Made by a program: the position numbers and the translations under genes. The notes beneath the pieces were generated by a model. That model was given only the letters and a program-made list of their open reading frames with translations. It had not been told where the DNA came from and searched no databases. From contig DYIZ01000001.1 in the NCBI GenBank assembly GCA_020723385.1, forward strand, positions 68,045 through 121,257: DNA of 53,213 bases, in the 5' to 3' direction. Origin of the DNA: Candidatus Aquidulcis sp. Lineage in GTDB: Bacteria; Chloroflexota; Anaerolineae; Anaerolineales; UBA4823. Shown in pieces: positions 17,212 through 43,198 of this stretch (the first letter of the stretch is position 1; every line of letters starts with the position of its first letter).

Positions 17212-17808
17212 TTAGCTGCCATTTCGGCGGTTGTGTCTTGCCGGGTCTTCGACTAACCGGCGAAGCGCGGTCAGGGCGCGGAATTGAATCGCTTTGACGG
17301 CGTTGATATTTTTCCCTATGATTACCGCTGTTTCTTCCAAACTATAATCATTGCCGAACCGCAACGTCAGCACATTTTGCTGTTCTGGCGTCAACTTTTG
17401 AATGGCGACTTTCACCTGCTGGAGATGATCTTTCCCCTCGGCGACCTCCGATGGGTCATCGGATGGCAGGCGCCAATCCTCCGGCAGGCTTTCGGTCGGG
17501 TGGGCATATTGTTTCCGATAGTGATCGGTCACGAGGTGTGATGCTGTGCCGAGCAGCCAGCCCCGCAGGTTGCTGTGCGGCCCATTGCCGCGATTAACTG
17601 CTTCGAGCAATATAACAAAGACCTCCGAGGCAACATCCTCCGCAATCGCCGAATCATCCAGGCGATAGCTGGCGTAACGGTAGACCTCGCCGTAGTAGCG
17701 GTTATGAATCATCGTAACCGCTTGCGGGTCTAACGATTGCAATTGACGCAAGTCAATTGAATCGTTGGGTTCTTTGGAATTGCCTCGAAAGGGAGATTTG
17801 AATGACAT
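17212..17808 (-). CDS. ECF-like RNA polymerase sigma factor
   Basis: 198-aa sigma-70-family factor with region 2 (MIHNRYYGEVYRYASYRLDDSAIAEDVASEVFVILLEAV, then LRGWLLGTASHLVTDHYRK) and region 4 (LTPEQQNVLTLRFGNDYSLEETAVIIGKNINAVKAIQFRALTALRRLV). No region 1.1 or 3, as in ECF factors. No anti-sigma gene is adjacent, which is unusual for the class. ATG 17808 is preceded by GAGGTGTA. A TATACT -10 box inside a CTCGAT/ATCGAG inverted repeat lies upstream and may mediate regulation. Confidence 0.9.
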   Translation of the reverse strand: MSFKSPFRGNSKEPNDSIDLRQLQSLDPQAVTMIHNRYYGEVYRYASYRLDDSAIAEDVASEVFVILLEAVNRGNGPHSNLRGWLLGTASHLVTDHYRKQYAHPTESLPEDWRLPSDDPSEVAEGKDHLQQVKVAIQKLTPEQQNVLTLRFGNDYSLEETAVIIGKNINAVKAIQFRALTALRRLVEDPARHNRRNGS

Positions 17809-19498: not shown

Positions 19499-19555
19499 GA
19501 ATTGCCTCCTTGTTTTGGACTGTAGGTTTTGCATTACAGAAATTCAGGCCGGTGA

Positions 19556-26537: not shown

Positions 26538-27974
26538 TCAATCGCCTTCCTGCCCGGTGGGATGGCAGCGGGTGCAGTCGGTAAAATCCGTTATCCCCTC
26601 TTCGCGATGCTCGCTGGCGATATTCTGCGCCGTGTGCTCGTGACAGCCGTAGCAGGTGTAAGTTTGTAACGTATCAGAATGGCACACCCGGCAAGCGCTC
26701 ACGCCCGATTCGCCGTGATTCATGGGGAAGAGATGCGCCTGATCGAATTCCGCCGGCGTCCAGGCGGTCGTCGTGTGGCAGGCGGCGCACTCGCTGTCAA
26801 AAAGGCCGGTGTGATAGGCTGGCTCGGCATGGCAGGCCGCACACGCCGTGGGTGTGCCGGCGAAGATCATTCCTGACGGCCCATTGGTATGACATCCGGC
26901 GCAAGTTACCTCTAAATGTGCGCCCGTCAGCGGGAAGGCGGCCAGCGAGTGGTCGAAGCTGGCGTCTTCCCAACTGTCCGTGGTATGGCATTGGGCGCAG
27001 TCGGTTCCGAATTGGCCGCCATGCTCGTCGTCGGCGGCATGGCAGGCATTGCAATCTTGCGGGGTACCGGCAAACACATCGTTGACGTGACAATCCTCGC
27101 AAGCAACGGTGACGTGCCTGCCGGTGAGCGGGAAGGCTGCCAGCGAATGATCGAAAGTGGCATCTTCCCAACCGTCGGTGGTGTGGCATTGGGCGCAGTC
27201 GGTTCCGAATTGGCCGGCGTGTTCGTCGTCGGCGGCATGACAGGCGTAGCAATCTTGCGGGGCGGCTGCCAACTCGGAGATTGACCGCGCCCCCAGGTGG
27301 CATTGGTCGCAGCCTAACGGGGCGTGTTTCCCACCCAGGGAGAAGGCCACCCGGTTGTGATCGAAAACCTCCCCGTAGCTGTCCAATCCATCGTGGCAGT
27401 CCAGGCAGACAACTCCAAACGTATCGGTGTGAGATTGGGTAAAGGCTGCATCCAAATCAGCATGGCAGGAAGCGCAAATAGCCGGGTCGAAGGAGGCCAC
27501 ACCGTTGCCGTGACAATCCGCACAGACGAACAACGCGCCATCGGCCATTTTTTGGTGGGCTTTCAACGAATAGCCCACCGCCTCGTGAGGGAAATTCTCC
27601 ATACCGGCGATGGTCAGGGATGCCTGCGCCCCGTTGTGGTCGGTGTGGCAGGCGTGGCAGCCAATATCCTGCCCCTGGGCGATCATCACGTTATGAAAAT
27701 TGTGGGGATCCTGGGTGAGGTCGGTGTGGCAGGCTACGCAGCGGTCAGCCATTTTCGATTGTCCCACCGGCGGGGTGTGGCAGTCACCGCAGGCGTTGAT
27801 CTCGGCATGTGAGCGCACGCCTCGCAGGGTGACGCCGCCGACCTGGGCGTTGAGCGCCCCCGGGCTGAACAAAACGCCGCCGCGCAGCAATCCGATGACA
27901 ACGATCGCGACCAGCGCTAAAGCAGTGGTAACGAGACCGGAGGTGGTGATACAACCGGGATGATTGGTTTTCAT
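26538..27974 (-). CDS. Membrane-anchored 18-heme c-type cytochrome
   Basis: 478-aa protein with an uncleaved-type N-terminal hydrophobic segment (GLVTTALALVAIVVIGLLRGG), then LFSPGALNAQVGGVTLRGVRSHAEINACGDCH. I count 18 CxxCH sites from CGDCH to CTRCH. An internal duplication of about 55 residues contains ADDEHxGQFGTDCAQCHTTDxWEDAxFDHSLAAFPLTGxH, giving cytochrome-c7-like heme clusters with extra histidines as likely sixth ligands. Extracytoplasmic electron transfer is expected. The start at 27974 is preferred over 27986. Last gene of the minus-strand redox locus, separated from the membrane protein gene by a repeat-rich 276-base gap. The N-terminal motif is shared with the 18-heme protein at 32837. 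Confidence 0.92.
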   Translation of the reverse strand: MKTNHPGCITTSGLVTTALALVAIVVIGLLRGGVLFSPGALNAQVGGVTLRGVRSHAEINACGDCHTPPVGQSKMADRCVACHTDLTQDPHNFHNVMIAQGQDIGCHACHTDHNGAQASLTIAGMENFPHEAVGYSLKAHQKMADGALFVCADCHGNGVASFDPAICASCHADLDAAFTQSHTDTFGVVCLDCHDGLDSYGEVFDHNRVAFSLGGKHAPLGCDQCHLGARSISELAAAPQDCYACHAADDEHAGQFGTDCAQCHTTDGWEDATFDHSLAAFPLTGRHVTVACEDCHVNDVFAGTPQDCNACHAADDEHGGQFGTDCAQCHTTDSWEDASFDHSLAAFPLTGAHLEVTCAGCHTNGPSGMIFAGTPTACAACHAEPAYHTGLFDSECAACHTTTAWTPAEFDQAHLFPMNHGESGVSACRVCHSDTLQTYTCYGCHEHTAQNIASEHREEGITDFTDCTRCHPTGQEGD

Positions 27975-28047
27975 GCAGCCGCCCAAAGATCAATGAAGAA
28001 TTAAGTAGCTTACGAATCGGATCTATGCTTTTTGTGCAAGGATTTTG

Positions 28048-28144
28048 AAACACAAAGGTGACAAAGGGTGCCACGATGGGCACGAAGGGTTAAATTGTGT
28101 TTCTTTGTCCACCTTCGTGATGTCCTTGCGTGCCCTTTGTGTTT
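28048..28144. repeat. Palindromic array of CACAAAGG / CCTTTGTG words
   Basis: Outer arms AAACACAAAGG (28048-28058) and CCTTTGTGTTT (28134-28144). Inside, GGTGACAAAGGGTGCC and GGCACGAAGG face TTTGTCCACCTTCGTG and CCTTGCGTGCCC: an imperfect long hairpin made of related short words. Confidence 0.75.
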
Positions 28145-28182
28145 AAATCTATTCCGGCTTGTCCGGGTTGGGGAAACACAGT

Positions 28183-28232
28183 CTTCGACTGCGCTCAGAC
28201 TGCCTGTGGAAGCACCCTGAGCGCAGTCGAAG
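28183..28232. repeat. 16-bp perfect inverted repeat CTTCGACTGCGCTCAG
   Basis: CTTCGACTGCGCTCAG at 28183-28198 and its exact complement at 28217-28232, 18-base spacer. Lies 18 bases downstream of the membrane protein stop (minus strand); possible 3' hairpin or REP-like element. Confidence 0.8.
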
Positions 28233-28250
28233 GGCGCTTTCGCTCAGTTG

Positions 28251-28934
28251 TTAGCGAAGTAACGTCGCGTAATAGAATGCTGCGCCCGCGTGAATGAAGG
28301 CTGATGTGAATAATACCATACCAATTGGGATGTGAACGGCGTGCCAGAGCGCCAACATGCGCCGGGCGGTGGCGAGCGACCCCAATTGGCGGCGCAAGCG
28401 CTGCTGCTGCCGGACCAGTTGCTTGATCTGCCGGTTGACCTGCTTGCTGGCGGCGGCGTTGGGCGGCGCGCCGCGTTTCTCCATCTCGGCGCCAATCGCC
28501 AGGATTTGTTGTTTGATCTCATCGGCTTCGAGGGTGATGCCATCGGCTGTGCGGGGGACGGCCGTGTAGATGTATCGCCCGATAAAGCCGCTGGCGACGA
28601 TAATAATTGTAAGCAGCAGCGCGATTCCCGCCAGCCCGTTGAATTTCCATGACGTGTGGAGCAGCACCATAAAGGGGCCAACAATCCCGGTGAAGATATG
28701 AAAATCAAGCCAGGATGACATTTTGCCCCAACGGGCGCGCCGGCTGCGCTTGCGAATGGTGTAAAGCGTTTCGGTCATCAACATCAGAATGAAGCCGAGC
28801 ACACCGATGCTATGACCGAAGAACCCGCTGGCCGCAGGCACGCCAGCGAGAGTGATGGTTACAAACAGATAAACCAGCGTAATAATGACGACGGCGATGA
28901 ACGCCATCCACAATTCACGATTGCTTTGACGCAT
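28251..28934 (-). CDS. Cytochrome b561/ferric-reductase-like membrane protein
   Basis: 227-aa protein with about five membrane segments: LWMAFIAVVIITLVYLFVTI, GHSIGVLGFILMLMTETLYTI, FHIFTGIVGPFMVLLHTSW, GIALLLTIIIVASGFIGRYIY and AVHIPIGMVLFTSAFIHAGAAF. Histidines lie in the membrane spans (GHSIG, DFHIFTG, LLHTSW, LWHAVHIPIG, FIHAG), as needed to bind b hemes. A charged cytoplasmic loop (about 135-185) sits between spans 4 and 5. It probably passes electrons between the cytoplasmic oxidoreductase/ferredoxin and the extracytoplasmic cytochromes. The start at 28934 overlaps the upstream FAD oxidoreductase by 20 bases, showing tight coupling. Heme binding is inferred. Confidence 0.8.
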   Translation of the reverse strand: MRQSNRELWMAFIAVVIITLVYLFVTITLAGVPAASGFFGHSIGVLGFILMLMTETLYTIRKRSRRARWGKMSSWLDFHIFTGIVGPFMVLLHTSWKFNGLAGIALLLTIIIVASGFIGRYIYTAVPRTADGITLEADEIKQQILAIGAEMEKRGAPPNAAASKQVNRQIKQLVRQQQRLRRQLGSLATARRMLALWHAVHIPIGMVLFTSAFIHAGAAFYYATLLR

Positions 28935-30243
28935 CAGTTGTTTTCCACCTCGTCCAAAAATCTGCAATCAAATCGCCGAGCGGAACGCCAGGGGTGAGCA
29001 GATGCTGCCGGATCGGGGTGATATCCACCCGGTTGGCGACGATAACCTGGATTGCTTTGGATAAAGTCTGGTCGCCCATAACGATCCCGCCGATCAAAGT
29101 ACTCGTCCCGACGAGCACCCGCAGGCGGTTTACATCGAAATTGGATTGCGCCGCGATGGCATCCGGGAGCTGCCGGAAGGTCTCCGAGTCGCCGCGGGCG
29201 ATCCCTAAAAGGTCGGGATCATCGCCGCGTCCCACCGCGCCGATGATGGTCGTGGTCAGGCAGGCCAGACGCGTCACATTGAAAGCCGGTTCTTTGTGAA
29301 AAAACGTGGTTTGTCCGGCCATATTCAACCCGGCAACGTAGCCCTGGTCGCGGGCTGGCGCCCACAGCGTATCGAGAATGGATTTCCCGGTCAGTGGATC
29401 GTACACCTGGGCGACATCACCCGCCGCGAAAATATCTGCGTCGCTGGTTTGCAGTGCATCGTTGACCACAACCCCACGATCTGTTTTCAAGCCCGAAGCC
29501 TCAGCCAACTCCTTACGCGGGCGGACACCGATGGCAACCGCGACGAGATCACATTTGAGCATCTCACCTTTTGTGGTTTTCACCCCCGCCACCCGCCCGC
29601 GGTTGCCGATGATCTCAGCCAACTCTGTGTGAAAATGGATATGCACCCCTTCGTCCACCAGGCGCTCTTCGATCACCCGCGACTCGGTCTCATCGAGCAC
29701 GTTGCTCCAATAGCGGTCGCCGCGCAGGAAATAATGAACTTTGACGCCGCGTGAGACCAGCCCTTCGACGATTTCCAGGGCGGTAATACCGCCGCCTACG
29801 ACGAGCGCGGTTTTTGCCTTGCGGGCAAGCTTGATGATGCGGCGGGCATCGTCGAGATTGTCGAGTTTCACCACCCCTTCCAGCTCGCAGCCGGGATTCG
29901 AGATACGCATGGCGGTCGAGCCGGTGGCGATCAGGAGACGATCGTAAACAACCGGGTGGGTGGTATGATTTTGGACGATAACAGTGTGATCTGCGGGCTG
30001 AATGCGGTTGGCGCGCCCGTGAAGGAATTTGCTCCCCAGGTGGCGATAATCCTCCTGGCTGAAAGGGAACAGATTTTTCTCCGAGATTTCCCCGGTCAGA
30101 AGGTATGCTAACCCTGGGCGGGAATAATACCCGTAAGGTTCATCCCCGATGACGACAATCTCGCCCGAGGCATCGTGGCGGCGGATGGCCTCACATGCGG
30201 CAATCCCGCCCGGCCCGCTGCCGATTATGACATAATGTCTCAT
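28915..30243 (-). CDS. FAD-dependent NAD(P)H oxidoreductase (NirB/rubredoxin-reductase-like)
   Basis: 442-aa pyridine nucleotide-disulfide oxidoreductase-fold flavoprotein. FAD-binding YVIIGSGPGGIAACEAI (1-20), second dinucleotide motif TALVVGGGITALEIVEGL (about 145-165), and FAD-ribityl motif SDADIFAAGDVAQVYD (about 270). No CxxC redox disulfide, as in nitrite reductase/NADH oxidase-like members. The C-terminal extension (about 370-442) ends in a region overlapping the next gene. Gene order (ferredoxin, this, membrane cytochrome-like, flanked by multiheme cytochromes) suggests it oxidises NAD(P)H or ferredoxin and feeds a membrane heme protein. It starts at 30243, 9 bases after the ferredoxin stop. 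Confidence 0.9.
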   Translation of the reverse strand: MRHYVIIGSGPGGIAACEAIRRHDASGEIVVIGDEPYGYYSRPGLAYLLTGEISEKNLFPFSQEDYRHLGSKFLHGRANRIQPADHTVIVQNHTTHPVVYDRLLIATGSTAMRISNPGCELEGVVKLDNLDDARRIIKLARKAKTALVVGGGITALEIVEGLVSRGVKVHYFLRGDRYWSNVLDETESRVIEERLVDEGVHIHFHTELAEIIGNRGRVAGVKTTKGEMLKCDLVAVAIGVRPRKELAEASGLKTDRGVVVNDALQTSDADIFAAGDVAQVYDPLTGKSILDTLWAPARDQGYVAGLNMAGQTTFFHKEPAFNVTRLACLTTTIIGAVGRGDDPDLLGIARGDSETFRQLPDAIAAQSNFDVNRLRVLVGTSTLIGGIVMGDQTLSKAIQVIVANRVDITPIRQHLLTPGVPLGDLIADFWTRWKTTDASKQS

Positions 30244-30252
30244 ACAATAATC

Positions 30253-30576
30253 TCAGTGATGTTCGACCAGCAGACTCTGTTGTGCTGCTTCGAGAAGCCC
30301 GCGGAAATCGAGCTTCTCAGGCTCGAAAAGATTGGTGCGCTCGAAACGTAAAACCCCACGCGGGCAGCGCGCCACGCACTCGCCGCAGGTCAAACAGCGG
30401 CTGTCTTTGACCGGCTCACCCCGCCAGGCATGACGGCGAACGTCTATCCCAATGGGGCAGTTAAAGGAGCAGATACCGCATTGAACGCAGCGAGCTGCAT
30501 CTGGAACCACGTAACTCGTCACCAGAACCTCGCGGCGGGTATTTTCTTGTTTGAGAATATTTTTTAGGGCGGGCAT
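30253..30576 (-). CDS. 2x[4Fe-4S] ferredoxin-like protein
   Basis: 107-aa protein starting MPALKNILKQENTRREVLV, with two cluster motifs: CVQCGICSFNCP (about 30-41) and CLTCGECVARCP (about 60-71). The region between them (IGIDVRRHAWRGEPVKDSRC) resembles HdrC or quinone-reductase-linked ferredoxin subunits. It probably docks on the downstream FAD oxidoreductase. The start is set at 30576; the longer frame from 30645 would run through the inverted repeat at 30592-30680, which forms its 5' region. No strong ribosome-binding site is seen. Confidence 0.87.
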   Translation of the reverse strand: MPALKNILKQENTRREVLVTSYVVPDAARCVQCGICSFNCPIGIDVRRHAWRGEPVKDSRCLTCGECVARCPRGVLRFERTNLFEPEKLDFRGLLEAAQQSLLVEHH

Positions 30577-30591
30577 AGTTTGGCATCCAAT

Positions 30592-30680
30592 GTATGATCT
30601 CAAAAAGAGGGGTGTGGGGTGTATTGAGCGGGCAAAGCCGTTCAATACACCCTACCGCTCCCGTTATTTTGAGATCATAC
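30592..30680. repeat. Nested inverted repeat upstream of the ferredoxin gene
   Basis: Outer perfect arms GTATGATCTCAAAA (30592-30605) and TTTTGAGATCATAC (30667-30680); inner hairpin GGGTGTATTGA (30617-30627) / TCAATACACCC (30642-30652) with apex GCGGGCAAAGCCGT. It begins 16 bases upstream of the ferredoxin start, between it and the 24-heme gene. Confidence 0.85.
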
Positions 30681-30762
30681 TATCCAACTTATTGTCACTC
30701 AGATTCTATATCCATAGCTTCAGGCAAGCAAGCAAAACGGGTGAGAGTATGGTGAAAATCCA

Positions 30763-32835
30763 TCAATCATCGCCGCCGTCGTGACAATCCAGGCAGCGGC
30801 CATTAATATCCGTGATGCCTTTTTCCCGGTGATGCTTTTCGGTTTCTGACTGATCGTGGCATCCATAACACGTCCAATCCGAACCTCCCGAGGGGTGGCA
30901 GGCAGCGCATTCGCCGTTTGCATCGCCATGGTTCATCGGGAAACTATGGTCGAAGCTGGCATCACCCCAGGATGTGGTGTTATGGCAATCGGAGCACTGC
31001 CCTTCGAAGTGATTGGCGGGCCGGGTATGGCAAGATTGACAATCGGTCAGACCGGTGTGGTCGAAGCTGGCATCGCCCCAGGAAGTGGTGTTGTGACAGG
31101 TCGAACACTGTCCTTCGAAATGGTTGGCCGGTTTGTCGCCGCTGTGGCAGGCCTGGCAGTCGGTAAAACCGGCATGGTCGAAGCTGGCGCCGCTCCATGA
31201 ACCGGTGCTATGGCAGTTCGAACACTGGCCCTCGAAATGATTCTCGGGTTTATCGCTGCTGTGGCAGGCCTGGCAGTCGGTAAAACCGGTGTGATCGAAA
31301 CTGGCGCCACTCCAGGAGCTGGTGCTGTGGCAGTTCGAACACTGGCCTTCGAAATGGTTGGCAGGTTTGTTGCTGCTGTGACACGCTTGACAGTCGGTAA
31401 AGCCGGTATGGTCGAAACTGACATCGCTCCAGTTGGTTGTGTTGTGACATTTCGAGCATTGGCCTTCGAAGTGGTTGGCGGGTTTATTGCTGTCGTGGCA
31501 GGATTGGCAGTCCGTGGCGCCCATTGCCGAGTGGTTAAAGGTGGCGTCACTCCAGGCAGTCGTGTTATGACAACTCGAACATTGACCTTCGTAGTGATTG
31601 GCCGGTTTGTTGCCGAGGTGGCAAGAGATGCAGTCTGTTGCGCCCATCGCGGAGTGGTTAAAAGTCGCGGGTGTCCAACCAGAAGTCGAATGACAGCTTG
31701 AACACTGGCCTTCGAAGTGATTGGCTGGTTTGTTGCTGCTGTGGCAGGAGAGACAATCGGTCGCCCCAGCCGCAGAATGATCGAATGTGGCTGGCGTCCA
31801 GGCGGATGTCGTATGACAACTCGAACACTGACCTTCGAAGTGATTCTCAGGCTTATCGTCAGTGTGGCAGGACAGGCAGTCGGTTGCTCCGGCGGCGGAA
31901 TGGTCGAAAAAGGCAGGTTTCCAGGCGTTGGTCGTATGGCAGCTTGAACATTGGCCTTGAAAGTGATCGGCAGGTTTATCAACAGTATGACAGGAGATGC
32001 AATCGGTTGCCCCAACTGCGGCGTGATCGAATACAGCCGGTTTCCAGGCCGTGGTTGTATGGCAGGTTGCGCAGTCGCCCTCGAAGTGGTTTACTGGTTT
32101 ATCGGCGGTGTGGCAGGCAATACAAGCCCGGGGTGTGCCGGTATAGATGCCGGATGTGTGGCAGGCGGTACATTCAATCTCGCCATGCCTGCCGGTCAGG
32201 GGGAAGAAAGTATGTTGCGCCCCGGCGCTGCCAGGTGCAAACGGGACCACGTGAGGCGGGACGGTCGGTACTCCGCTCGATGGGAGAACTGGTTCACCCT
32301 CTAATGCGAAGGGGACAAAAGATGTGCTGGCGGTCGCTGCAAAACTGCTGAGCGGCTCGGACGAGTCGTTGACCATCTCGAGCAAGGTGGTGATTTTTAC
32401 CCGGAAAGCTTCGAAATCGTCAGGATTTTCCAATGGTGTTCTTGCTAAAAATGGCAGCAGCTCCTTGATCTTGGACAACAGAGCGCCAAGATCGGCCCGC
32501 AAAACCGGCGCATCCGCTTCGGCAGCTTTAGAAACTGCTAGGACGGCTCGATCCAACGCCTCATTCAGGTAATCCAGAGCCAGGGCCTCGTTATCGGTCC
32601 CAGCAAGATAGGCAAGATTATCAGCGCGCCGCCCGGCAAGGCTGATCCAATATTGAGCCTTCCCGGTTTCGGAGCGAACAAGTCTGGCGCGCTGCTGTTC
32701 GGCGAAGCTCTGCAAAGGAAAGAAGATACTTCCCGGCCGGAATGGTCCAACCGCTGCAAGCGTATAGCCTCCGATAATTCCCAAAATTATCATCACTAAT
32801 ACACTGATTCCTGCATAAATCAAGAAGCGGCGCAT
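30763..32835 (-). CDS. 24-heme c-type cytochrome with ten tandem diheme modules
   Basis: 690-aa protein. N-terminal hydrophobic anchor (FLIYAGISVLVMIILGIIGGYTLAAVG) followed by GSIFFP, then a helical region without heme (about 35-160, RLVRSETGKAQYWISLAGRRADN). I count 24 CxxCH motifs. The core is ten tandem modules of 39-41 residues, CxxCHxxxKPANHFEGQCSxCHxTxxWxxAxFDH. Each has two CxxCH plus two isolated histidines (NHFEG and FDH), exactly enough for bis-His ligation of both hemes. Five N-terminal modules end GATD (41 aa); the later ones end GFTD (39 aa). An extended extracytoplasmic heme wire is plausible. The start at 32835 overlaps the upstream stop (TGATATG); AGGA precedes it. Confidence 0.93.
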   Translation of the reverse strand: MRRFLIYAGISVLVMIILGIIGGYTLAAVGPFRPGSIFFPLQSFAEQQRARLVRSETGKAQYWISLAGRRADNLAYLAGTDNEALALDYLNEALDRAVLAVSKAAEADAPVLRADLGALLSKIKELLPFLARTPLENPDDFEAFRVKITTLLEMVNDSSEPLSSFAATASTSFVPFALEGEPVLPSSGVPTVPPHVVPFAPGSAGAQHTFFPLTGRHGEIECTACHTSGIYTGTPRACIACHTADKPVNHFEGDCATCHTTTAWKPAVFDHAAVGATDCISCHTVDKPADHFQGQCSSCHTTNAWKPAFFDHSAAGATDCLSCHTDDKPENHFEGQCSSCHTTSAWTPATFDHSAAGATDCLSCHSSNKPANHFEGQCSSCHSTSGWTPATFNHSAMGATDCISCHLGNKPANHYEGQCSSCHNTTAWSDATFNHSAMGATDCQSCHDSNKPANHFEGQCSKCHNTTNWSDVSFDHTGFTDCQACHSSNKPANHFEGQCSNCHSTSSWSGASFDHTGFTDCQACHSSDKPENHFEGQCSNCHSTGSWSGASFDHAGFTDCQACHSGDKPANHFEGQCSTCHNTTSWGDASFDHTGLTDCQSCHTRPANHFEGQCSDCHNTTSWGDASFDHSFPMNHGDANGECAACHPSGGSDWTCYGCHDQSETEKHHREKGITDINGRCLDCHDGGDD
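30940..32110. repeat. Tandem coding repeats of the 24-heme cytochrome
   Basis: About ten copies of a 117-123-bp coding unit on the minus strand. The nucleotide sequences of neighbouring units are still very similar (recurring CACTTCGAAGG, read from NHFEGQ), indicating recent duplication or gene conversion. Confidence 0.85.
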
Positions 32836-32836
32836 A

Positions 32837-34324
32837 TCATTTTCCTGTTTCTGCTTCACCTGCCGCGCCAGTTGGGTGGCAGGTGAAGCAATTCGGTAAT
32901 TCATCCGGTGTAACCCCGAATGACTGGTGACTCTCGGCAATGAGGTCAGCCTGGTGATCATGGCAGCCATAACAAGTAACTGTCACATAAGATGCCGGGT
33001 GGCAGACCTGGCAGGAAATTTCACCCTGCCCGCCGTGATCGAGTGAGAAAGTGTGGATTTTTAAAAATGCCGGCGTCCAGGCAGTTGTCGTGTGACAATC
33101 CTGGCATTCCAGGCCAAAGAACCCGGCATGGATTTCTGGTTCTGCATGGCATTGGACACATTCCACTGGCGTGCCGGCGAACCGTTTTTCAGCATGACAG
33201 GCGGCGCAATCAGCCACTGCATGCTGACCATCCAGAACAAAGGCATTCGCATGGTCGAAGTCGTGCATCCGGTCAATGCCGTCGTGGCATTGGGTGCAGG
33301 CATCGCCAAACTGCTGGCGGTGGTTGCTGATGAATTCGGCATCGTGCTGGCTGTGGCAGGTGATGCAGGTAGACAAATCGAATTGCCGGATATCTTCAAC
33401 GTGACAGGTGGTACAAGTCATCGTTTCGTCTTCGTAGGATGTTGTATGTCGAACCAAGCTGAACCCGGTGTGGGTTGTGTGATCGAATTGCTCGCCATTC
33501 AACCGGGCGGGGATCCACCCTGCGGGAGTATGGCAATCCCCACAGGCCGAGGTGAAGACCCCCAGGTGGGCAGCCGGCTCCGCATGGCACGCGGCGCAAT
33601 CGTCCGGCATCCCCGCGTAACGCCCATCGGGATATTCCGGTGGATTATGACAATCCACACAAAATATCTGATTATGTTTGCCCTCCAGCGGGAAACTGGT
33701 GGCATAATGATCGAAACTTTGCATCCGATCTCCGCCGTCGTGACAGGCCAGGCAGTTGTCCCCAACTTGTTGGATGTGCTGCTCCGTAAAGGCCGAATCA
33801 TGATTGGCATGACAGGTTTCGCACGCCTGATTGGAAACCGCGAAATCCTGCTGGCGGTTGGCATGGCAGGTTTCACAGGCAATCGGGGTGGTGTCATAAT
33901 TCACCTGATGCCAATCCAGGCTGAAGCGGGTCACCGAATGATCAAAGTGTGTTAATGCTGACGTGGTCGGATCGAACTCACTACCCTGATGTTCGGTGTG
34001 GCATGAGGCGCAGTGATTGGCATTAGTCAATTGACCGTGTACTCCCGTTTTGTCTGCAATCTGACTTCGAATGGCCGTATGACAATCCTGGCATTGGCTT
34101 GACTGTTCGACATTCAACGGCTGGTGGCATAGGGCGCACTGCGCTTCGAATTCGGCGTGCGACGCAAACCCTTCCAAAATGACGCCAGATTTCTTTTTTG
34201 CGCTAACCTGTCCGGGACTGAAGATTGATCCACCCCTGAATCTGATAGATAGACCCAGCCCAATCATCATAATGCATGTTGCCAGCACGCTGGCGATAGA
34301 AATCAAAGATACGTGTCGTCTCAT
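32837..34324 (-). CDS. Membrane-anchored 18-heme c-type cytochrome
   Basis: 495-aa protein with an N-terminal anchor (VSLISIASVLATCIMMIGLGLSI), then RFRGGSIFSPGQVSAKKKSGVILEGFASHAEFEAQCALCH. I count 18 CxxCH sites, from CALCH to CFTCH, with intervening F-D-H and FPLEGKH/FSLDHG-type histidine motifs as in c7-like and NrfB-like cytochromes. It shares the N-terminal block (GGxxFSPG, VxLxGxxSHAE) with the 18-heme protein at 26538. First gene of the redox locus; one base separates its stop from the 24-heme start. The start is placed at ATG 34324; the TTG at 34330 is less likely. No ribosome-binding site is visible. Confidence 0.92.
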   Translation of the reverse strand: MRRHVSLISIASVLATCIMMIGLGLSIRFRGGSIFSPGQVSAKKKSGVILEGFASHAEFEAQCALCHQPLNVEQSSQCQDCHTAIRSQIADKTGVHGQLTNANHCASCHTEHQGSEFDPTTSALTHFDHSVTRFSLDWHQVNYDTTPIACETCHANRQQDFAVSNQACETCHANHDSAFTEQHIQQVGDNCLACHDGGDRMQSFDHYATSFPLEGKHNQIFCVDCHNPPEYPDGRYAGMPDDCAACHAEPAAHLGVFTSACGDCHTPAGWIPARLNGEQFDHTTHTGFSLVRHTTSYEDETMTCTTCHVEDIRQFDLSTCITCHSQHDAEFISNHRQQFGDACTQCHDGIDRMHDFDHANAFVLDGQHAVADCAACHAEKRFAGTPVECVQCHAEPEIHAGFFGLECQDCHTTTAWTPAFLKIHTFSLDHGGQGEISCQVCHPASYVTVTCYGCHDHQADLIAESHQSFGVTPDELPNCFTCHPTGAAGEAETGK

Positions 34325-34599
34325 TTTCAAAAGTAATGTGTTGATGCAACAGCAATCTCACCTGGGTGCGCGAGTGCAACACTCCGGTGTGAGGGCTTTA
34401 TTGGTTCGATGGAATGACTTATGTTCCTAGCCAAACCCTATTCAGTTAGTCGGTTTTCTTATTCAAAAGTTACGGGTATTGGAACCCCTATATCTATACT
34501 AAATTTACCCGGAAATTTATCTTCAAACATTTGGATTAATTTGAATTCATTGGGATTTTGATATTATTGATCTTCCGCTTTGATGTTGATAGAAGAATC

Positions 34600-34860: not shown

Positions 34861-37419
34861 TTAACTTGTGGAAAGAAACGCGACGGCCTGCCCCTTTTCG
34901 TCATCCATCACAAGGTCAATATGGTGTTCAGGACGAAAATCAACGACTTCGATCAACCGCAGGCATTCACGGGCGCATTCATCGAGCTGGATTTCATCGG
35001 GTGAGAGCCACTGACTCAGCCGGTTCGGCGTTTCATAGAAGAATTTACGGTTGAAAAAGGCATCCGCCTCATCGAAGGAGACCGCGATGGGGTAAATTTG
35101 CGCCTCCATCAAATCCTGGAAGAAATGGGTTCCGAAAGAAGGCTCGGGAGCAATTCCCACACCCTGACCCGACAACTCGACCAGCGCGCCAGAATTGCAC
35201 ACGTCTGCGTAGAGTACGTACACGCCCAAATCGGTGTTGGTAGTCCCCCAGCGTCCTGGCCCAACGCAAATGAATGATTTGGGGGGCAGTTTGGCATTCA
35301 ATTTGCTGACGATACGGCCGAGTTGATTTCGCCCGGAGGCCGACGGAATCGAGTAGTATCCTTCGGGTGTGATGAAAATCACGTAGCGAATCCCTGGCAG
35401 GTATCCTTGGGGTACCATGAAACGCGTCGAAAAGATGATCTCCTCGTGAGGCAGCTCTTTCGGCAGGCGGACGACTTTGGTCGTTTGCAGATGGCTTTGC
35501 GGTCGGCATTGCAGCAGCGTGATCAATGCTTCGGGTTTGAGGGCAAAAGGATCGGGAATCTGGACGGTGAATTCCATATCCACCGCGGAATGGTAATTCT
35601 CCTCCAGGAGCTTGAGAATCTTCGAGAAACGCCCTGCAAACGGCGTGCGGCGTAAAAACTCATCGAAGGTGAGGCAAAGCCTGGGAATATCGGCTTCCCC
35701 CACTCGGGTGCGCGGCGTCGTGAGCACACCATCTTGCTCCAGTTGTGCAATATAACGGATTGCCGGGTAGCGCGAGGTGAGCACCTGGCCGATAGGCAGC
35801 GTCTTGAAGGTGTTATCCTCCAGGTCAATCACATCCACAAACTGCTGTGAATAGCGCTGGATGGCATCAACATCGTCGTCAGGCTGGAGCGTGGGGTGGC
35901 TGAGCGCCACCAGGCGCGGGTAATCATTGCCCACGCGCTCGACGGCGCGCGTCCCCAGGCCCCACACCAGCCGCACGAAGCCATCTTCTTTGCGTATTTG
36001 CGGCGACCAGCGGTATAGGTTGCGGCTGAAGGCCACACCCGCTCCGTGCGGGAGGTAGTATCGTCCCCAGATCTCGCCTTGCACTACCTGGATGAGCACC
36101 GCCATGCGTTCATCGTAATCCTGCAACCCCTTGCGCCGCCGGTAGAGCAGCGCATCGGGTTTGAAGGTGCTGGCGTAGGTACGAGCGATGGCGCGGGTCA
36201 GCGCAGCCAGGTTTTCTGCGGGCGTGCCCTGGTTGGGACAGAAGTGGCTGTCATATTTCCCGGCGAACGAGGTGCCGAAGTTGTCTTCGAGTTGGCTGGA
36301 TGAGCGCACGATCACTGGCTGGCGGCCCAGCTTTACCAGCAACGCTTGCAGCTTTTCGATCACTTCGGGTGGGAATTGGCCTCCCTGGAATTCTTCGACA
36401 ATCTGCGGGTATTCGGCGCGGATTTCTTCTTCGGGCTTGTATTTCTGGTTGTTGCGGTGCATCAGCCCGTTCATCGCCATGAAGATATACATCAGGTCAG
36501 AGCCGAGGAAGTATGAATCCGGTGTTTTGATCCAATCCCGGATGGAATCGTCGGCGACTTCGTTCAGGATGCGGGCGGCCAATAGCATCCCTGCCGATTT
36601 ACCGCCGATCTTTCCATAACCGATTTTTCGCCGGTGGATATCTTCCAGATCGGCGATGGTGAACCAGTCTTTGGCGATTTGGATGTAAGCCAGTTGGTCG
36701 CTGATGATCTTGCGCAGGAGCGAGACTTTCAATTCTCGGATGCGATGATCGAGAGCTTCCCGTTCGTCGAACGGCAGCGCTTCGATGGCGCGCGCTTGCT
36801 CGAAGAGCATCTCCTCCGGGGCGAACTCGGGATCGAAGGGTACCAGCGCGTCACGCGCTCCCACTTTGTCGCCGGCCCCTTGCGGTTCGAGACTCTCGCC
36901 GCGTGACCAGACTTGCACTGAGCGCACGTACATACTGTTGACGATCACGCCAAAGCCGCGCCGGTCCTGCACATCGCGGTCATCCACCATTTGGATGCCG
37001 AGTGTGTAACAGGCCGGCGTGGCATTGGCGCAGCCGAAACGGCGGCGGGCCTCAGAGATGGCAGTTTCGAGCGTCGAACCCAGGGCAGTCAGCGCGGCGC
37101 TCTTGCGGTCCACCCATGCCACCACGTTGATGCCTTTCTTCCGGCCGGATGCGGTTGTTACGCCCGCGTGGGGGCGCAGCGATGAGTGCTCCGGCTCGAA
37201 CTCGAAGACGGCCTTCACCGTACGATCCATCTGGCCCAGGTATTCGCCAACCTGCTTGACGAGGCTGTTGGACACATAGGCGCACACATCGCAGCGGCCC
37301 TGGCGCAGCGCCATCGTCGCGGCCTGGGTGTCGCCGTTGAAGCGCCGTTCCGCGCAGAACGTAACGGCCTTTTCGACCATTTGATTGGCGAGAGCGGGGT
37401 CGAGCTGGAGGGTGGTCAT
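34861..37419 (-). CDS. PEP/pyruvate dikinase-like ATP-binding protein
   Basis: 852-aa protein. The region about 260-480 carries the PPDK/PEP-synthase ATP-grasp-like N-domain features: KIGYGKIGGKSAGMLLAARIL (compare GGKGAGL), RQPVIVRSSSQLEDNFGTSFAGKYDS (RSSxxxED, SFAG), and later GVAFSRNLY and EFTVQIPDPFALKPEALITLLQCRPQS. I see no TSHAA-type phosphohistidine domain and no PEP-binding barrel, so it is not a complete PPDK or PpsA. The N-terminal 200 residues (RRFNGDTQAATMALRQGRCD...) are unassigned. It lies downstream of the GltB-like operon on the same strand, across a roughly 100-base repeat array. No ribosome-binding site before ATG 37419. Reaction unknown. Confidence 0.8.
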   Translation of the reverse strand: MTTLQLDPALANQMVEKAVTFCAERRFNGDTQAATMALRQGRCDVCAYVSNSLVKQVGEYLGQMDRTVKAVFEFEPEHSSLRPHAGVTTASGRKKGINVVAWVDRKSAALTALGSTLETAISEARRRFGCANATPACYTLGIQMVDDRDVQDRRGFGVIVNSMYVRSVQVWSRGESLEPQGAGDKVGARDALVPFDPEFAPEEMLFEQARAIEALPFDEREALDHRIRELKVSLLRKIISDQLAYIQIAKDWFTIADLEDIHRRKIGYGKIGGKSAGMLLAARILNEVADDSIRDWIKTPDSYFLGSDLMYIFMAMNGLMHRNNQKYKPEEEIRAEYPQIVEEFQGGQFPPEVIEKLQALLVKLGRQPVIVRSSSQLEDNFGTSFAGKYDSHFCPNQGTPAENLAALTRAIARTYASTFKPDALLYRRRKGLQDYDERMAVLIQVVQGEIWGRYYLPHGAGVAFSRNLYRWSPQIRKEDGFVRLVWGLGTRAVERVGNDYPRLVALSHPTLQPDDDVDAIQRYSQQFVDVIDLEDNTFKTLPIGQVLTSRYPAIRYIAQLEQDGVLTTPRTRVGEADIPRLCLTFDEFLRRTPFAGRFSKILKLLEENYHSAVDMEFTVQIPDPFALKPEALITLLQCRPQSHLQTTKVVRLPKELPHEEIIFSTRFMVPQGYLPGIRYVIFITPEGYYSIPSASGRNQLGRIVSKLNAKLPPKSFICVGPGRWGTTNTDLGVYVLYADVCNSGALVELSGQGVGIAPEPSFGTHFFQDLMEAQIYPIAVSFDEADAFFNRKFFYETPNRLSQWLSPDEIQLDECARECLRLIEVVDFRPEHHIDLVMDDEKGQAVAFLSTS

Positions 37420-37429
37420 GGAGGGGTAT

Positions 37430-37521
37430 TCAGGTAAGAAGGTATCAGGTATCAGGTATCAGGTAAACAGGTATCAGGTAGACAAGTACCCGTTTACCTG
37501 TTTACCCTTTTACCTGTCTAC
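37430..37521. repeat. Palindromic array of GGTATCAGGTA / TACCTGTTTACC words
   Basis: The left half reiterates GGTATCA/GGTAAACA/GGTAGACA; the right half carries TACCTGTTTACC and TACCTGTCTACC. It abuts the stop codon of the FMN-domain gene and precedes the next start. Confidence 0.8.
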
Positions 37522-39081
37522 CTATTTATGCCCATTCCCGTTGCCGCCCATCGCTTCCCAGATTGGCAGGGGGCGTTCGTAACCGACCAGCTTGAGGCCG
37601 GTGATGGCGGCGGTGTTGAGATCCATCGCCCGCAGGTCTTCGGTCGAAAGCTCCTTGATGCTCTTGTGACCGGAGAGCATGGTCAGGATTTTGACTTCCT
37701 CGGTGCAGGCGTGGATGAAGTTGCCCAGGCGGTGACCAGCTTCGATTGGGTCAAGGCGGGCGCGCATTTCGGGTTTCTGGCTGGTGATGCCGTAGGGGCA
37801 GTTGCCTTTCTGGCAGGCGTAGCACACCCGGCAGCCCATGGCGACCTCCGCGGCGGAGCCGAACCCGGCGGCGTCGGCGCCCATGGCCATCGCTTTGAAG
37901 GCGTCCAGCCCGTTGCGGATGCCGCCCAGGGCGATCAATTTGACCTTGCGGTGGACGCCATAATCCTTGAGCGCCTGGACCGCAGGCGGGATGCAGGCGA
38001 TTGTGGGGATGCCCACCCCCTGGGTGACGATGTCGGGCGAGCAGCCTGTGCCGCCCACCAACCCGTCAATGCTGATGGCGTCCGCCCCAGCCTCGATGCA
38101 AGCTGCCACATCGGCATATGGGCGGGATGGGCCGAGTTTGAAGAAGATGGGGACTTTGTACTCGGTGACGTCGCGCAGGAATGCCACCATGTGCTTCATG
38201 TCATCGAGTGTGTGGACATCGTAATAGCGGCAGGGGCTGAGCGCATCCGACCCGACCGGTACGCCGCGCACGCGCGAGACATCCTCGGTGACTTTCGCTC
38301 CCAGCAGGTGGCCGCCCATGCCGGGCTTAGCGCCCTGGCCGATCTTGACCTCCACGGCATCGCCGCTGTTGAGATAGTCTACCGACACGCCCCAGCGGCC
38401 GGTGGACCATTGGATGATGAGGTACCCGCCCTGGTGCTTCTTGTGGGTTCTCTCTTTGTCGGTGTAGCCGTTCGCCAGCCAGGGTTCCTCTGCGACAAGA
38501 CCGCCTTCGCCGGTGTTGGTGGCGATGCCGGCTTCCGCCGCACCGATGGCGAGCGCCAGCTTGGCTTCCTTGCTCAACGCGCCAAAGGACATGGCCGCCC
38601 AAACGAATGGCGCTTTCAGCACAACGGGATTCTCGCAAGTATCCTCGCCCACGACGACTTGCAGGTCGCACGCTTCGCGATACTTATCGAGCGGGGCGGC
38701 GCTGGCAATCTGGCTCGGCACGACCGTGATCATGTCGAAGTTGGGGGTCTGCCCGGTGGTGCCGAAGCCGCGCAGCAGATATTCACCCGTTTGGGCTTTG
38801 TAGTGAACTTCCTCGACGGCTGAGAGCGTCCATGGGTAGCGGGTGATGTATTCTGGCTCAGCCGGGTTGATGCGGATAGCATTGGTTGGGCAGAATTCGG
38901 CGCAAATGCGGCAACCCACGCAGGTGTTGAAGTTGACGACATTCATTTCGCCGGTCAAAGTATCCAGCGCGTACACGGCATGAGGACAAACCTCGGCGCA
39001 GGTAGCGCATTTGCCGGGCATACGCGCATTCAAGCAAACTTCTTTGTTGACACTGACACAAAAGGCGCCTATGACAGCCAT
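37522..39081 (-). CDS. Glutamate synthase-like FMN-domain protein with N-terminal 2x[4Fe-4S]
   Basis: 519-aa protein of the split (archaeal-type) GltB2 kind. N-terminal clusters are CATCAEVCPHAVY and CVGCRICAEFCPTNAI (about 20-70). The FMN/alpha-subunit-like TIM barrel contains APFVWAAMSFGALSKEAKLALA, GQGAKPGMGGHLLGAKV, ISIDGLVGGTGCSPD, LIALGGIRNGLDAFKAMAMGAD and the Fe-S cysteine set MGCRVCYACQKGNCPYGI. No glutaminase (GATase-2) domain is present here or elsewhere in the operon, so glutamine-dependent glutamate synthesis is not assured. The start at 39081 has GGAGG upstream. Follows the GXGXG-domain gene by 11 bases. Confidence 0.9.
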   Translation of the reverse strand: MAVIGAFCVSVNKEVCLNARMPGKCATCAEVCPHAVYALDTLTGEMNVVNFNTCVGCRICAEFCPTNAIRINPAEPEYITRYPWTLSAVEEVHYKAQTGEYLLRGFGTTGQTPNFDMITVVPSQIASAAPLDKYREACDLQVVVGEDTCENPVVLKAPFVWAAMSFGALSKEAKLALAIGAAEAGIATNTGEGGLVAEEPWLANGYTDKERTHKKHQGGYLIIQWSTGRWGVSVDYLNSGDAVEVKIGQGAKPGMGGHLLGAKVTEDVSRVRGVPVGSDALSPCRYYDVHTLDDMKHMVAFLRDVTEYKVPIFFKLGPSRPYADVAACIEAGADAISIDGLVGGTGCSPDIVTQGVGIPTIACIPPAVQALKDYGVHRKVKLIALGGIRNGLDAFKAMAMGADAAGFGSAAEVAMGCRVCYACQKGNCPYGITSQKPEMRARLDPIEAGHRLGNFIHACTEEVKILTMLSGHKSIKELSTEDLRAMDLNTAAITGLKLVGYERPLPIWEAMGGNGNGHK

Positions 39082-39092
39082 AAAAACCTCCG

Positions 39093-39743
39093 TTAGTTGT
39101 AGAACGGCTTCATCGAAGCAGCCACGATCTTGCGGAACTTCGCCAGGTCGGCTTCGATGCCATAAGTCTCGAAGTAGGCCTTGAGTTTGGCCTTGTCTTC
39201 GTCGGTGAGCGGCTCGATCTTGGTATTGTTGCCGATGGATTTCCACTGCCCGCCGATGTACACATTGCCGCGAATCAGGTAGTTGGCAAAGTTCTCGCCG
39301 GCATCCCCAACGATCACCAGATCACCCTTGAGCATGTAGGTTCCTACTTCGTTGCCCACGTTCCCGGCGATGATGATCGTCGCGCCTTTGTTCATCGTGG
39401 CGGTGAAATCCCCGGCGTTGCCTTTGACTACGACCGTCCCGCCATAGCAATACTGGCCTACGCCGTAATCGGCATTGCCTTCGATGATGATCGTCCCGGC
39501 AGTCATATTATCGGCAGCATAATTGGCGGCGTTCTTCTGCACCTTGATGGTTGCCCCGGCGTTGAGTACGCCAACATAGTCGCCAGCGTCGCCCAGGATG
39601 ACGATCTCGCCATGTTTGAACCCGGCAGCCAGGCCGCTCAGATGAGAGGCATTCTTAATTTTCACCGGTACGCCGTTCACGCTCTCGCGCAGTGCGCTGT
39701 TGACAGCCTTGAGATCCTTAGTTTTTGCGTCTATCGTTTTCAT
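39093..39743 (-). CDS. GXGXG-motif protein (glutamate synthase C-terminal domain, GltB3-like)
   Basis: 216-aa right-handed beta-helix protein corresponding to the C-terminal domain of large glutamate synthase or to FwdC-like GXGXG proteins. It has repeats of the type GEIVILGDAGDYVG, GTIIIEGNADYGVG, GTVVVKGNAGDF, ATIIIAGNVGNEVG and DLVIVGDAGENFANYL. Structural partner of the FMN-domain protein encoded next. ATG 39743 is preceded by GGAG. It lies downstream of the FrhB-like gene across a repeat array at 39761-39878. Confidence 0.9.
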   Translation of the reverse strand: MKTIDAKTKDLKAVNSALRESVNGVPVKIKNASHLSGLAAGFKHGEIVILGDAGDYVGVLNAGATIKVQKNAANYAADNMTAGTIIIEGNADYGVGQYCYGGTVVVKGNAGDFTATMNKGATIIIAGNVGNEVGTYMLKGDLVIVGDAGENFANYLIRGNVYIGGQWKSIGNNTKIEPLTDEDKAKLKAYFETYGIEADLAKFRKIVAASMKPFYN

Positions 39744-39760
39744 AAGTTGTCTCCGTTTTT

Positions 39761-39878
39761 CAGCGGTCAGCAGTCAGCAGTTGTCAGTTATTCGTTATCG
39801 CGATCGTCCGTCACTATCCATTATTCACTGATCACTGATCACTGCTCACTGATTACTGATCACTAATCACTGGTAACT
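39761..39878. repeat. Palindromic array of GTCAGCAG / CACTGATCACTG words
   Basis: The left part CAGCGGTCAGCAGTCAGCAG faces a right part that reiterates CACTGATCACTGATCACTGC and CACTGATTACTGATCACT. It occupies the gap between the FrhB-like and GXGXG genes. A related single arm is at 52652. Confidence 0.8.
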
Positions 39879-41043
39879 AGCATCCCGTACACCCGCTTCT
39901 GACTTCCTTCAGCACGCCCGGCCGGACTGGGGTCCGGTAGAGACGGGTGAACTGCTGAATGGCTTCGCCGCGCTTGAGCGGGTCGGCCAGCGCATCGAGC
40001 ATGAGAATTTGCAGGTCTTTGAAGGCCTGGGCGCGCGCACGGCGGTCTTTCTCCTCGGCGGCGGCGGCCAGGGCGGCCTCGTCCACCCGGTGGGTGGTCT
40101 CCAGCAGATTCATCTGGATAGCGTTGCGCACGAAAATGTCGCCGGTGCGGGAGCGGATGATGAGGGTGGAAGTCCCCTCGGGTGCGCCCAGCGTCCCAAT
40201 GGCGATATCAGCCGACTCGCCCAAATAATCGTCGCAGCTCCCGCAGCCGGTGCGGGTGAAGCTCTCGGCTTGCTGGCGCGGGATGGTGCGCACGCTGCCA
40301 TCCCACAGGACGGCGCGCATCCATTCGCGGTCGGGTGAGATTTCCAGCCGCTTGACCTGCTCGGGGGCGACATCCATTCGTTTGACCAGGACTTCTTCGA
40401 CAACCTCGGGCTTATAAATACCGGTGCAGAATATGGCGACCGTCAGGCGGATGACCTCCTGATAAACCTGCAAGCGGGGGTTGGTGGATGATTTCAACTT
40501 GCGGATGGCCTGGGCGGCGCAGGGTGTGGCGACCACCGCCAGGTTTTGGAAACCGCCCTCGAAAACGGCCTCGTTGAGTGCATCGAAGACCGGCGCCCAC
40601 AGATATTGCGGCCCCATGGCGCTGACGATTTCCTCGACGGTCGTAACGACGCGCGCCACCGGTTCCAGGCTCCACGGGTTCACATCCAGCATGATCACCC
40701 CGTCCAGCAAGCCAGAACTGCGCCCGGCGGTCAGGATGGCGCGAATGACATCGTTCGGCGCGCCAGATTTGACCGGGCCGCGTGCTGATGCGGCCAAAAC
40801 TGAGCGCGACTCAAGCGGCGCCCAGCGCTGCAGACGCGGGCAGGCTTCCTCGCAGAAGTGCTGGCAGAACGTGCAGCTATCGAAATTGGTTTTTGTGTAT
40901 CCCACGGTTTTAGTGCGCTTCTCCACGACCGGATGATCCCCTTCGGCCCAGGCGAGAACCTGCTTCGAGCAGGCTGCCACGCACAGGCCGCACCCGGCGC
41001 AAGTGTCGAGCGACCAGACCTCTGTTTCTAAGCGTTTCGACAT
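39877..41043 (-). CDS. FrhB/FdhB-like iron-sulfur flavoprotein
   Basis: 388-aa protein of the coenzyme F420 hydrogenase/dehydrogenase beta-subunit family. The N-terminal cluster motif is CAGCGLCVAACSKQVLAW, followed by a second cysteine set CTFCQHFCEEACP. The family middle region includes VVATPCAAQAIRKLK and FCTGIYKPEVVEE, and cysteines in RTGCGSCDDYLGESADIAIG. It ends SGCTGC. In this family FAD and [4Fe-4S] clusters connect F420, ferredoxin or other carriers. The start at 41043 has AGGAGG upstream. Between HdrA-MvhD and GltB3-like genes, so probably an electron-wiring subunit of the same complex. Confidence 0.85.
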   Translation of the reverse strand: MSKRLETEVWSLDTCAGCGLCVAACSKQVLAWAEGDHPVVEKRTKTVGYTKTNFDSCTFCQHFCEEACPRLQRWAPLESRSVLAASARGPVKSGAPNDVIRAILTAGRSSGLLDGVIMLDVNPWSLEPVARVVTTVEEIVSAMGPQYLWAPVFDALNEAVFEGGFQNLAVVATPCAAQAIRKLKSSTNPRLQVYQEVIRLTVAIFCTGIYKPEVVEEVLVKRMDVAPEQVKRLEISPDREWMRAVLWDGSVRTIPRQQAESFTRTGCGSCDDYLGESADIAIGTLGAPEGTSTLIIRSRTGDIFVRNAIQMNLLETTHRVDEAALAAAAEEKDRRARAQAFKDLQILMLDALADPLKRGEAIQQFTRLYRTPVRPGVLKEVRSGCTGC

Positions 41044-41060
41044 AGTTCCTCCTGTTTGAG

Positions 41061-41140
41061 AGTAAACATGTAGGCAAGTAGGCATGTAGACGGGTTTGCG
41101 AGCGCCTGTCTACCTGTTTACTTGTGTACTTGACTACTTA
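41061..41140. repeat. Palindromic array of AAGTAGGCATGTAGAC / GTCTACCTGTTTACT words
   Basis: AGTAAAC (41061-41067) faces GTTTACT (41116-41122), GTAGAC (41086-41091) faces GTCTAC (41108-41113), with intermediate GTAGGCA/TGTACTT words. It fills the HdrA-FrhB intergenic gap and overlaps the hdrA 3' end. Confidence 0.75.
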
Positions 41141-43193: not shown

Positions 43194-43198
43194 AAGTT

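Follow-up and report, generated by a model that had tools for sequence, protein, structure and literature searches.

A recurrent ferredoxin, flavoprotein, membrane protein and multiheme cytochrome cassette of Chloroflexota as a candidate membrane redox conduit

We analysed a 53,213-nucleotide stretch of contig DYIZ01000001.1 from Candidatus Aquidulcis sp. (Chloroflexota, Anaerolineales), hereafter the window, in which six redox genes lie side by side on the minus strand (Table 1). In the direction of transcription, from position 34324 to 26538, they encode an 18-heme multiheme cytochrome (MHC18b), a 24-heme cytochrome, a 2x[4Fe-4S] ferredoxin (Fd), an FAD/NAD(P) oxidoreductase (FADox), a membrane protein (MP) and another 18-heme multiheme cytochrome (MHC18a). 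A previous reading of the DNA letters (the sequence-only reading) had described these genes as sharing one strand and carrying 60 CxxCH motifs. Our count reproduced this, with 18 motifs in the open reading frame (ORF) 26538-27986, 24 in 30763-32970 and 18 in 32837-34330. The cytochromes of the locus match cytochrome c7/c3 families in Pfam and NCBIfam (PF14522, PF02085 and PF14537). Probable ATG starts, judged by eye, were placed at 27974 (MHC18a), 28934 (MP), 30576 (Fd) and 34324 (MHC18b). The most likely start of the 24-heme gene, ATG 32835, gives a protein of 690 residues and removes the overlap with the upstream cytochrome gene. The overlap that had been described between the oxidoreductase and a five-span membrane protein also held, with the MP start lying 20 nucleotides (nt) inside the end of a Pyr_redox_2 family gene and five spans predicted by AlphaFold2 and hydropathy.

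Table 1. Genes of the redox locus in the window and cytochrome-less modules in other genomes.
Feature	Position	Strand	Evidence or remark
MHC18a, 18-heme c-type cytochrome	26538..27974	-	18 CxxCH, N-terminal hydrophobic segment as likely anchor; cassette core
MP, five-span membrane protein, predicted diheme b cytochrome	28251..28934	-	AlphaFold2 helices, invariant His
FADox, FAD/NAD(P) oxidoreductase, Pyr_redox_2	28915..30243	-	PF07992 1.1e-55
Fd, 2x[4Fe-4S] ferredoxin	30253..30576	-	PF13187 1.6e-09, two CxxCxxCxxxCP motifs
24-heme cytochrome, likely N-terminal anchor and heme-free domain, accessory	30763..32835	-	24 CxxCH
MHC18b, second 18-heme cytochrome, accessory, MHC18a relative	32837..34324	-	18 CxxCH
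FADox-Fd-MP module without cytochrome	L101 7134-10288; L102 5188-8297; L103 4917-8215; L104 7263-10395; L107 5504-8355		

A single scan of named genomes with the MP returned 50 loci with 51 MPs; it is limited to relatives that have exact peptides in common with the window's protein, and it omits records too close to the window's genome. By title, 49 of these loci are Chloroflexota, some of them placed by genus name, and one (L068) is Actinomycetota; the sole isolate among them is Levilinea saccharolytica KIBI-1 (L077). Directly 3' of the MP, a same-strand multiheme cytochrome (MHC) of 14-41 hemes was found for all 47 MPs with at least 1 kb of downstream sequence. Where at least 1.8 kb of upstream sequence was available (45 MPs), 41 have FADox no more than 900 nt away and 43 have Fd no more than 3 kb away; the misses for Fd are L059 and L076. 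For FADox, the misses in L045 and L071 are over-long MP starts, and the flavoprotein in fact ends just upstream; in L032 it stands behind the cytochrome, and in L059 a 35-heme gene is inserted. In loci of close MP homologues (L002-L019), an MHC follows the MP in 18 of 18 cases, L016 showing 3 hemes up to the edge of its sequence, and an 8-heme gene follows it in L020. What recurs is a four-gene core, Fd-FADox-MP-MHC, and its repeated finding in a constant order across genomes shows that the locus is not a product of chance. The entire six-gene order of the window is mirrored in L035 (18-30-Fd-FADox-MP-21, numbers giving hemes). A 24-41-heme cytochrome occurs in 9 of the 50 named loci, and the 24-heme and MHC18b genes are minority additions outside the cassette core. 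The Actinomycetota cassette sits on a 4.2-kb contig and is the sole match among 198 sampled genomes of that phylum; with one match in 198 genomes, transfer and misbinning cannot be told apart.

Among 301 sampled Chloroflexota genomes, MP homologues were present in 47 at E<=0.001, 19 of them at E<=1.5e-47, with the next match at 8.9e-22. The MHC18a family and the close MP (both at E<=1e-40) occupy an identical set of 19 of these 301 genomes, in a comparison where the cytochrome cut-off was set high, at most four candidates were scored per genome and weaker cytochrome relatives fall outside the count. Within the best-sampled family the distribution is patchy, with 11 of 17 listed genomes positive, and MP and MHC18a are either both present or both absent. 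Across the 37 loci that have MP, FADox, Fd and MHC together, the distances within each protein family follow those within the others (Mantel r 0.67-0.83, a level reached in 0 of 999 permutations), shared species history being still contained in this correlation. These data support the four-gene core as a conserved, co-inherited unit. No other family of sense-strand neighbours was found in more than 14 of the 50 named loci, in a clustering that includes spurious antisense ORFs and merged starts. Ten median representatives of recurrent neighbours were annotated: a PHP_C protein, a D-Ala-D-Ala ligase-like protein, an MFS transporter, ATP synthase alpha/beta and gamma, ETF alpha, MreB, an S24 peptidase-like protein and two without a match. 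None of the ten is a terminal reductase, and none is a porin, although no porin model was run and the analysis was not aimed at porins or wall anchors.

The window's MP alone gave nothing significant in Pfam (best E 0.09), NCBIfam (best 0.029) or the PDB. Its AlphaFold2 model (mean predicted local distance difference test score, pLDDT, 82.5; predicted template modelling score, pTM, 0.63) contains helices at residues 6-29, 38-63, 72-94, 101-125, 130-154 and 160-224, numbered from ATG 28934, which together with the hydropathy profile we read as five predicted spans plus a helical cytoplasmic insert. In an alignment of 50 rows covering 49 of the 51 named MPs (L076 and L078, which are cut off, were omitted), H41, H79, H93, H201 and H215 are invariant in all rows. 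Four of them form two H-x13-H pairs, H79/H93 and H201/H215, the members of each pair being four helical turns apart, inside two predicted helices. Such paired histidines are the pattern of the two-heme transmembrane b cytochromes of bc1 and of NADPH oxidases and ferric reductases (NOX/FRE), and the four residues are predicted to be the heme ligands of a protein of this kind. Loop 62-75 contains on average 4.7 Lys+Arg and 0.1 Asp+Glu, the insert 126-196 contains 7.2 and 5.6, and loops 30-37 and 95-100 contain about 0.9 Lys+Arg. This distribution of basic residues would put the N-terminus and the variable insert on the cytoplasmic side, with one histidine per helix near each face, so that H79 and H201 are predicted on the inner side of the membrane and H93, H215 and H41 on the outer side. 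At the family level, 45 of the 50 MP members match PF01292 (cytochrome b561, Ni_hydr_CYTB) at E<=0.1, with a best value of 1.4e-6, and only two match PF01794 (Ferric_reduct; best E 0.031), so that the MP is not recognised as carrying that domain.

On the input side, FADox exceeds the Pyr_redox_2 cut-off by a wide margin (189.5 bits against 26.1) and belongs to this superfamily. Nearest to it by sequence are the subunits of AorC/PadH-type ferredoxin:NAD oxidoreductases, the closest solved sequence being 8c0z_E (4.5e-44), from an aldehyde oxidoreductase complex; the PadH model gives 170 bits, below its cut-off of 475, and no aldehyde or phenylglyoxylate enzyme was seen in the cassette. Where the second Rossmann strand ends, at the pyridine-nucleotide site, 8c0z_E has Glu-Met. 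In the FADox family the first of these two positions is Leu in 44 and Met in 4 of 48 sequences, and the second is Arg (R174) in all 48. The comparison of glutathione reductase with lipoamide dehydrogenase provides the classical rule for NADPH versus NADH preference, and by this rule the arginine suggests that FADox favours NADPH. The Fd is closest in the PDB to the FwdF polyferredoxin domains.

On the output side, each large cytochrome carries one N-terminal hydrophobic segment (residues 10-45 in the TTG-started form of MHC18a), which makes membrane anchoring likely. We aligned 41 sequences of the MHC18a family, including 40 of the 48 downstream cytochromes of the named loci; those of L032, L040 (first copy), L045, L048, L057, L065, L068 and L071 were omitted as very long, cut off or of doubtful start. 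Of the 18 motif histidines, 17 are conserved in 80% or more of the rows, as are 16 histidines outside the motifs, which is enough for mostly bis-His hemes. The profile of this family matches the MHC18b gene at 4.2e-53 (G000:C236:101688-102365), and the N-terminus of MHC18b is akin to the family. The 24-heme cytochrome is built of two-heme repeats of about 41 residues, the spacing between CxxCH motifs mostly alternating 17/24 and then 17/22. Its N-terminus, which has a relative in the 30-heme protein of L035, includes a heme-free region with a weak match to DUF5667 (E 0.04). Among solved structures, the MHC18a profile matched at E<=1e-5 only 1z1n (2e-7), which we take to be a 16-heme cytochrome of the periplasmic HmcA kind. 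The AlphaFold2 model of MHC18a was poor (pLDDT 72.1, pTM 0.40), with a single fold match at E 3.3. The sequence-only reading had named assignment to a known respiratory complex as the outcome that would speak against it. None of the models run gave such an assignment: HmcA, the nearest among the named cytochrome models, has an equivalog cut-off of 400 bits, and MHC18a scored 37.6 and MHC18b 32.7. For the carrier bacteria we chose 13 genomes, the window's own and 12 of the 50 named (G301-G312). PF01578 cytochrome-assembly genes, CcmF- or CcmC-like by size, were present in 12 of the 13, including the window's genome and Levilinea, and in G303 there were none.

More distant MP homologues extend the comparison to loci without a cytochrome. 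Around ten MPs of 26-33% identity (L021-L030), the short loci contain an adjoining flavoprotein in nine and a ferredoxin-like ORF in six, and none of their ORFs reaches three CxxCH. In stretches of 15-16 kb around four of the ten (L101, L102, L103 and L107) and around one more distant homologue outside the ten (L104), FADox-Fd-MP occurs in 5 of 5 cases, and every ORF has at most one CxxCH. Genes that by eye resemble those of histidine kinases and response regulators lie nearby in L101 and L102. The four putative ligand histidines are kept in all ten distant MPs. All 70 closer homologues have H41, and in 68 of them a cytochrome was seen downstream (L076 and L078 end at the contig edge); none of the 10 distant ones has it. 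Position 198 is His in 67 of 68 aligned closer homologues (Gln in one) and Arg in all ten distant ones. The MP of L020, which is 32% identical and precedes a cytochrome gene, has H41. This pattern suggests that H41 may be a hand-off residue toward the cytochrome, and that an older three-part module, FADox-Fd-MP, may later have been fitted to a heme wire.

The interpretation that we favour, with confidence a little above even, is that the cassette is a membrane redox conduit resembling NADPH oxidases and ferric reductases, in which the acceptor is a protein-borne heme wire and the final acceptor most likely lies outside the cell. Judging from the fold and from R174, NADPH (or NADH) would reduce the FAD of FADox, from which electrons would move through the two [4Fe-4S] clusters of Fd, which may also admit reduced cytosolic ferredoxin. 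They would cross the membrane over two b hemes, presumably held by H79-H201 on the cytoplasmic side and by H93-H215 on the outer side; the histidines are conserved, and the hemes and their pairing are modelled on that conservation. The anchored cytochrome, which most often has 14-21 hemes, would take up the electrons at the outer face, perhaps aided by H41 there; the two genes adjoin and co-occur, and their products would be in contact. In some species 24-41-heme cytochromes are also present and could lengthen the wire through the wall. Both the extracellular end and the direction of flow are inferred, and minerals, humics, electrodes or partner microbes would be the most likely acceptors. In a fermenter, the cassette would serve as an electron sink beside H2. 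The sequence-only reading had drawn a similar route, from NAD(P)H or ferredoxin to the outer hemes. The conserved, co-inherited core and the paired histidines of the MP strengthen it, whereas the 24-heme and MHC18b genes, which it had counted in, occur only in a minority of loci. That route is the best-supported explanation, and the observation itself proved more general than could be known from the window. Only tentatively do we consider a wire that is NADPH-driven and quinone-free, in which FADox and Fd feed the MP directly and then cytochromes of 14-41 hemes; it would give single-membrane fermenters such as Levilinea an extracellular outlet for electrons that requires neither a quinone chain nor a porin.

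Several observations weigh against the conduit. The PF01292 matches of the MP family are weak, and the window's own MP gives none. Against the PDB, a fold search with the MP model gave nothing meaningful (best Foldseek E 0.11), its VIA rows being generic helix matches, mostly over residues 97-227; in the searches with the MP and MHC18a models no b561, ferric-reductase or nanowire chain was prominent, which is not evidence against those folds. There is no FADox in the 3.5-16 kb around the MP of L020/L105 despite the cytochrome there, and the H41 pattern is confounded with ancestry, given the low identity of the cytochrome-less homologues. Passages of PMC7399161 describe Anaerolineales as mostly planktonic in one bioanode study, and passages of PMC4877987 judge direct interspecies transfer to be rare in other Anaerolineae. 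Finally, complex I (NuoL) is present in 13 of the 13 chosen carriers and CydA in 11, and MenA lies far over its cut-off in the window's genome (L122, the only one to pass among the six classified of 30 UbiA loci), so that a quinone pool may exist and the MP could be quinone-reactive.

These genes bear on the best-surviving alternative, which we regard as unlikely yet worth weighing: the MP would be a b561-type quinone site and the wire would be fed by menaquinol, or FADox and Fd would reduce quinone, which would make the cassette a new addition to the inner-membrane quinol dehydrogenases, in analogy to CymA, CbcL and ImcH. The PF01292 family, to which most MPs are weakly matched, has many quinone-reactive members. 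Against a quinone link stand the flavoprotein and ferredoxin encoded alongside in conserved order, and the scarcity of quinone synthesis genes in the chosen carriers: MenB is over its cut-off in just 3 of 13, MqnC in none (any match in two, G305 reaching 371 of 428 bits) and MqnA/D (PF02621) in none. Self-made quinone is thus uncertain in most of them, and a hidden or salvaged quinone route may operate. Two of the six UbiA matches of Levilinea were classified, and neither is MenA. Quinone independence, at first hinted at by the missing Mqn and MenB genes, was not retained as an established fact, being weakened by NuoL, CydA and the MenA of the window's genome.

We consider it improbable that the cytochromes stay within the wall, storing electrons or passing them to nitrite, O2, peroxide or another soluble acceptor. 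The periplasmic kind of their sole solved relative would fit such a role, and no surface-display part was identified in a neighbour annotation not aimed at wall anchors, but the annotated neighbours contain no terminal reductase either, and 14-41 hemes in long repeat proteins would suit distance over catalysis. Least probable is inward uptake, in which electrons from reduced minerals, partner cells or a cathode enter along the wire and are used by the module to form NADPH or reduced ferredoxin: every step is reversible in principle, but most c-heme wires are less reducing than NADPH, so that inward flow would need energy, and the cassette contains no coupling device. Of the bacteria that bear on direction, Ardenticatena (Chloroflexota) has a surface heme protein and gives both anodic and cathodic current (in passages of PMC5808234), and Levilinea, which carries the cassette, is listed as a fermenter of carbohydrate and protein (in passages of PMC5481317), a point against uptake.

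Among known systems, NOX/FRE proteins pass electrons from pyridine nucleotide to FAD, then over two stacked b hemes on paired histidines to an outside acceptor, and the cassette, with the histidine pattern observed in the MP, appears to share this layout. It differs in its separate Pyr_redox-type flavoprotein and ferredoxin, in the c-heme wire as acceptor and in the rarity of Ferric_reduct matches. The Hmc complex of Desulfovibrio (HmcA-F) likewise joins a 16-heme c3-type cytochrome, the kind matched by the MHC18a profile, to membrane and Fe-S subunits, but the HmcA model scores far below its cut-off and the cassette has a flavoprotein. The well-known systems of extracellular electron transfer (EET) are fed by quinol dehydrogenases, and the cassette suggests a different feed point, pyridine nucleotide/ferredoxin. 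None of EetA, EetB, PplA and Ndh2 of flavin-based EET was named among the protein matches of the locus, for which no dedicated model was run. As to the Omc nanowires (OmcS/E/Z), none was among the solved structures matched by the MHC18a profile at the threshold given above, and the MHC18a fold model is poor. In the Rnf-MmcA system of Methanosarcina acetivorans, as is proposed for the cassette, a cytosolic carrier feeds the cytochrome through a membrane complex. MmcA is described in PMC6703419 as a membrane multiheme cytochrome for extracellular transfer; the cassette differs in being bacterial, in its diheme-b-like MP and in its 14-41 hemes, and no Rnf subunit was named in the locus by Pfam or NCBIfam.

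Closer to the host, passages of PMC7399161 (Arbour 2020) report large MHCs of variable heme number in Anaerolineales and no porin-cytochrome complexes of the Mtr type, and passages of PMC3971608 (Hug 2013) report a 24-heme cytochrome in RBG-9. Both concern long MHCs of the same phylum, and in these passages neither describes a feeding module. A single polyheme cytochrome of low OmcS similarity is mentioned in passages of PMC5481317, where direct interspecies transfer is suggested and left open, and according to passages of PMC4877987 five genomes of Anaerolineae and strain UNI-1 have no cytochromes of the MtrC/OmcA type. In titles, abstracts and passages, a scope that leaves preprints and closed papers aside, we found no description of the Fd-FADox-MP-MHC cassette. 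Large MHCs as such were already known in Anaerolineales. Anaerolineae are common in digesters and sediments, where electron exchange with methanogens has been suspected without a mechanism. As a marker the cassette is specific and recurrent; it also provides a route open to testing, and it occurs in an isolate that can be cultured. If the route is true, fermenting bacteria could dump electrons outside the cell.

Two further redox regions lie elsewhere in the window. On the minus strand at 34861-45756, a separate cluster encodes NuoF-like, HoxU/NuoG-like Fe-S, HdrA2/FlpD fusion and FrhB-like proteins together with a GXGXG protein, an Fe-S glutamate-synthase domain and a PPDK_N protein, and its make-up resembles that of a flavin-bifurcating complex linked to an enzyme of the glutamate-synthase kind. 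These upstream genes were considered as part of the system and set aside, being the best match of no ORF in L031-L080; 23 of these 50 loci span at least 17 kb, so that linkage may exist elsewhere. The separate 7-heme gene of the sequence-only reading was confirmed at 18023-19534 (minus strand), with seven CxxCH counted. The heme-free part of its product found no relative among the 80 loci compared; a long Thr/Pro-rich stretch behind its anchor is suggestive of a wall-spanning stalk. Beside it, at 17212-17808, lies a sigma factor gene by appearance. Elsewhere in the window's genome, a 1.4-kb stretch (G000:C48:23215-24599) has on its minus strand seven DNA patterns resembling CxxCH and is possibly the site of a further multiheme cytochrome, as judged from the DNA pattern only.

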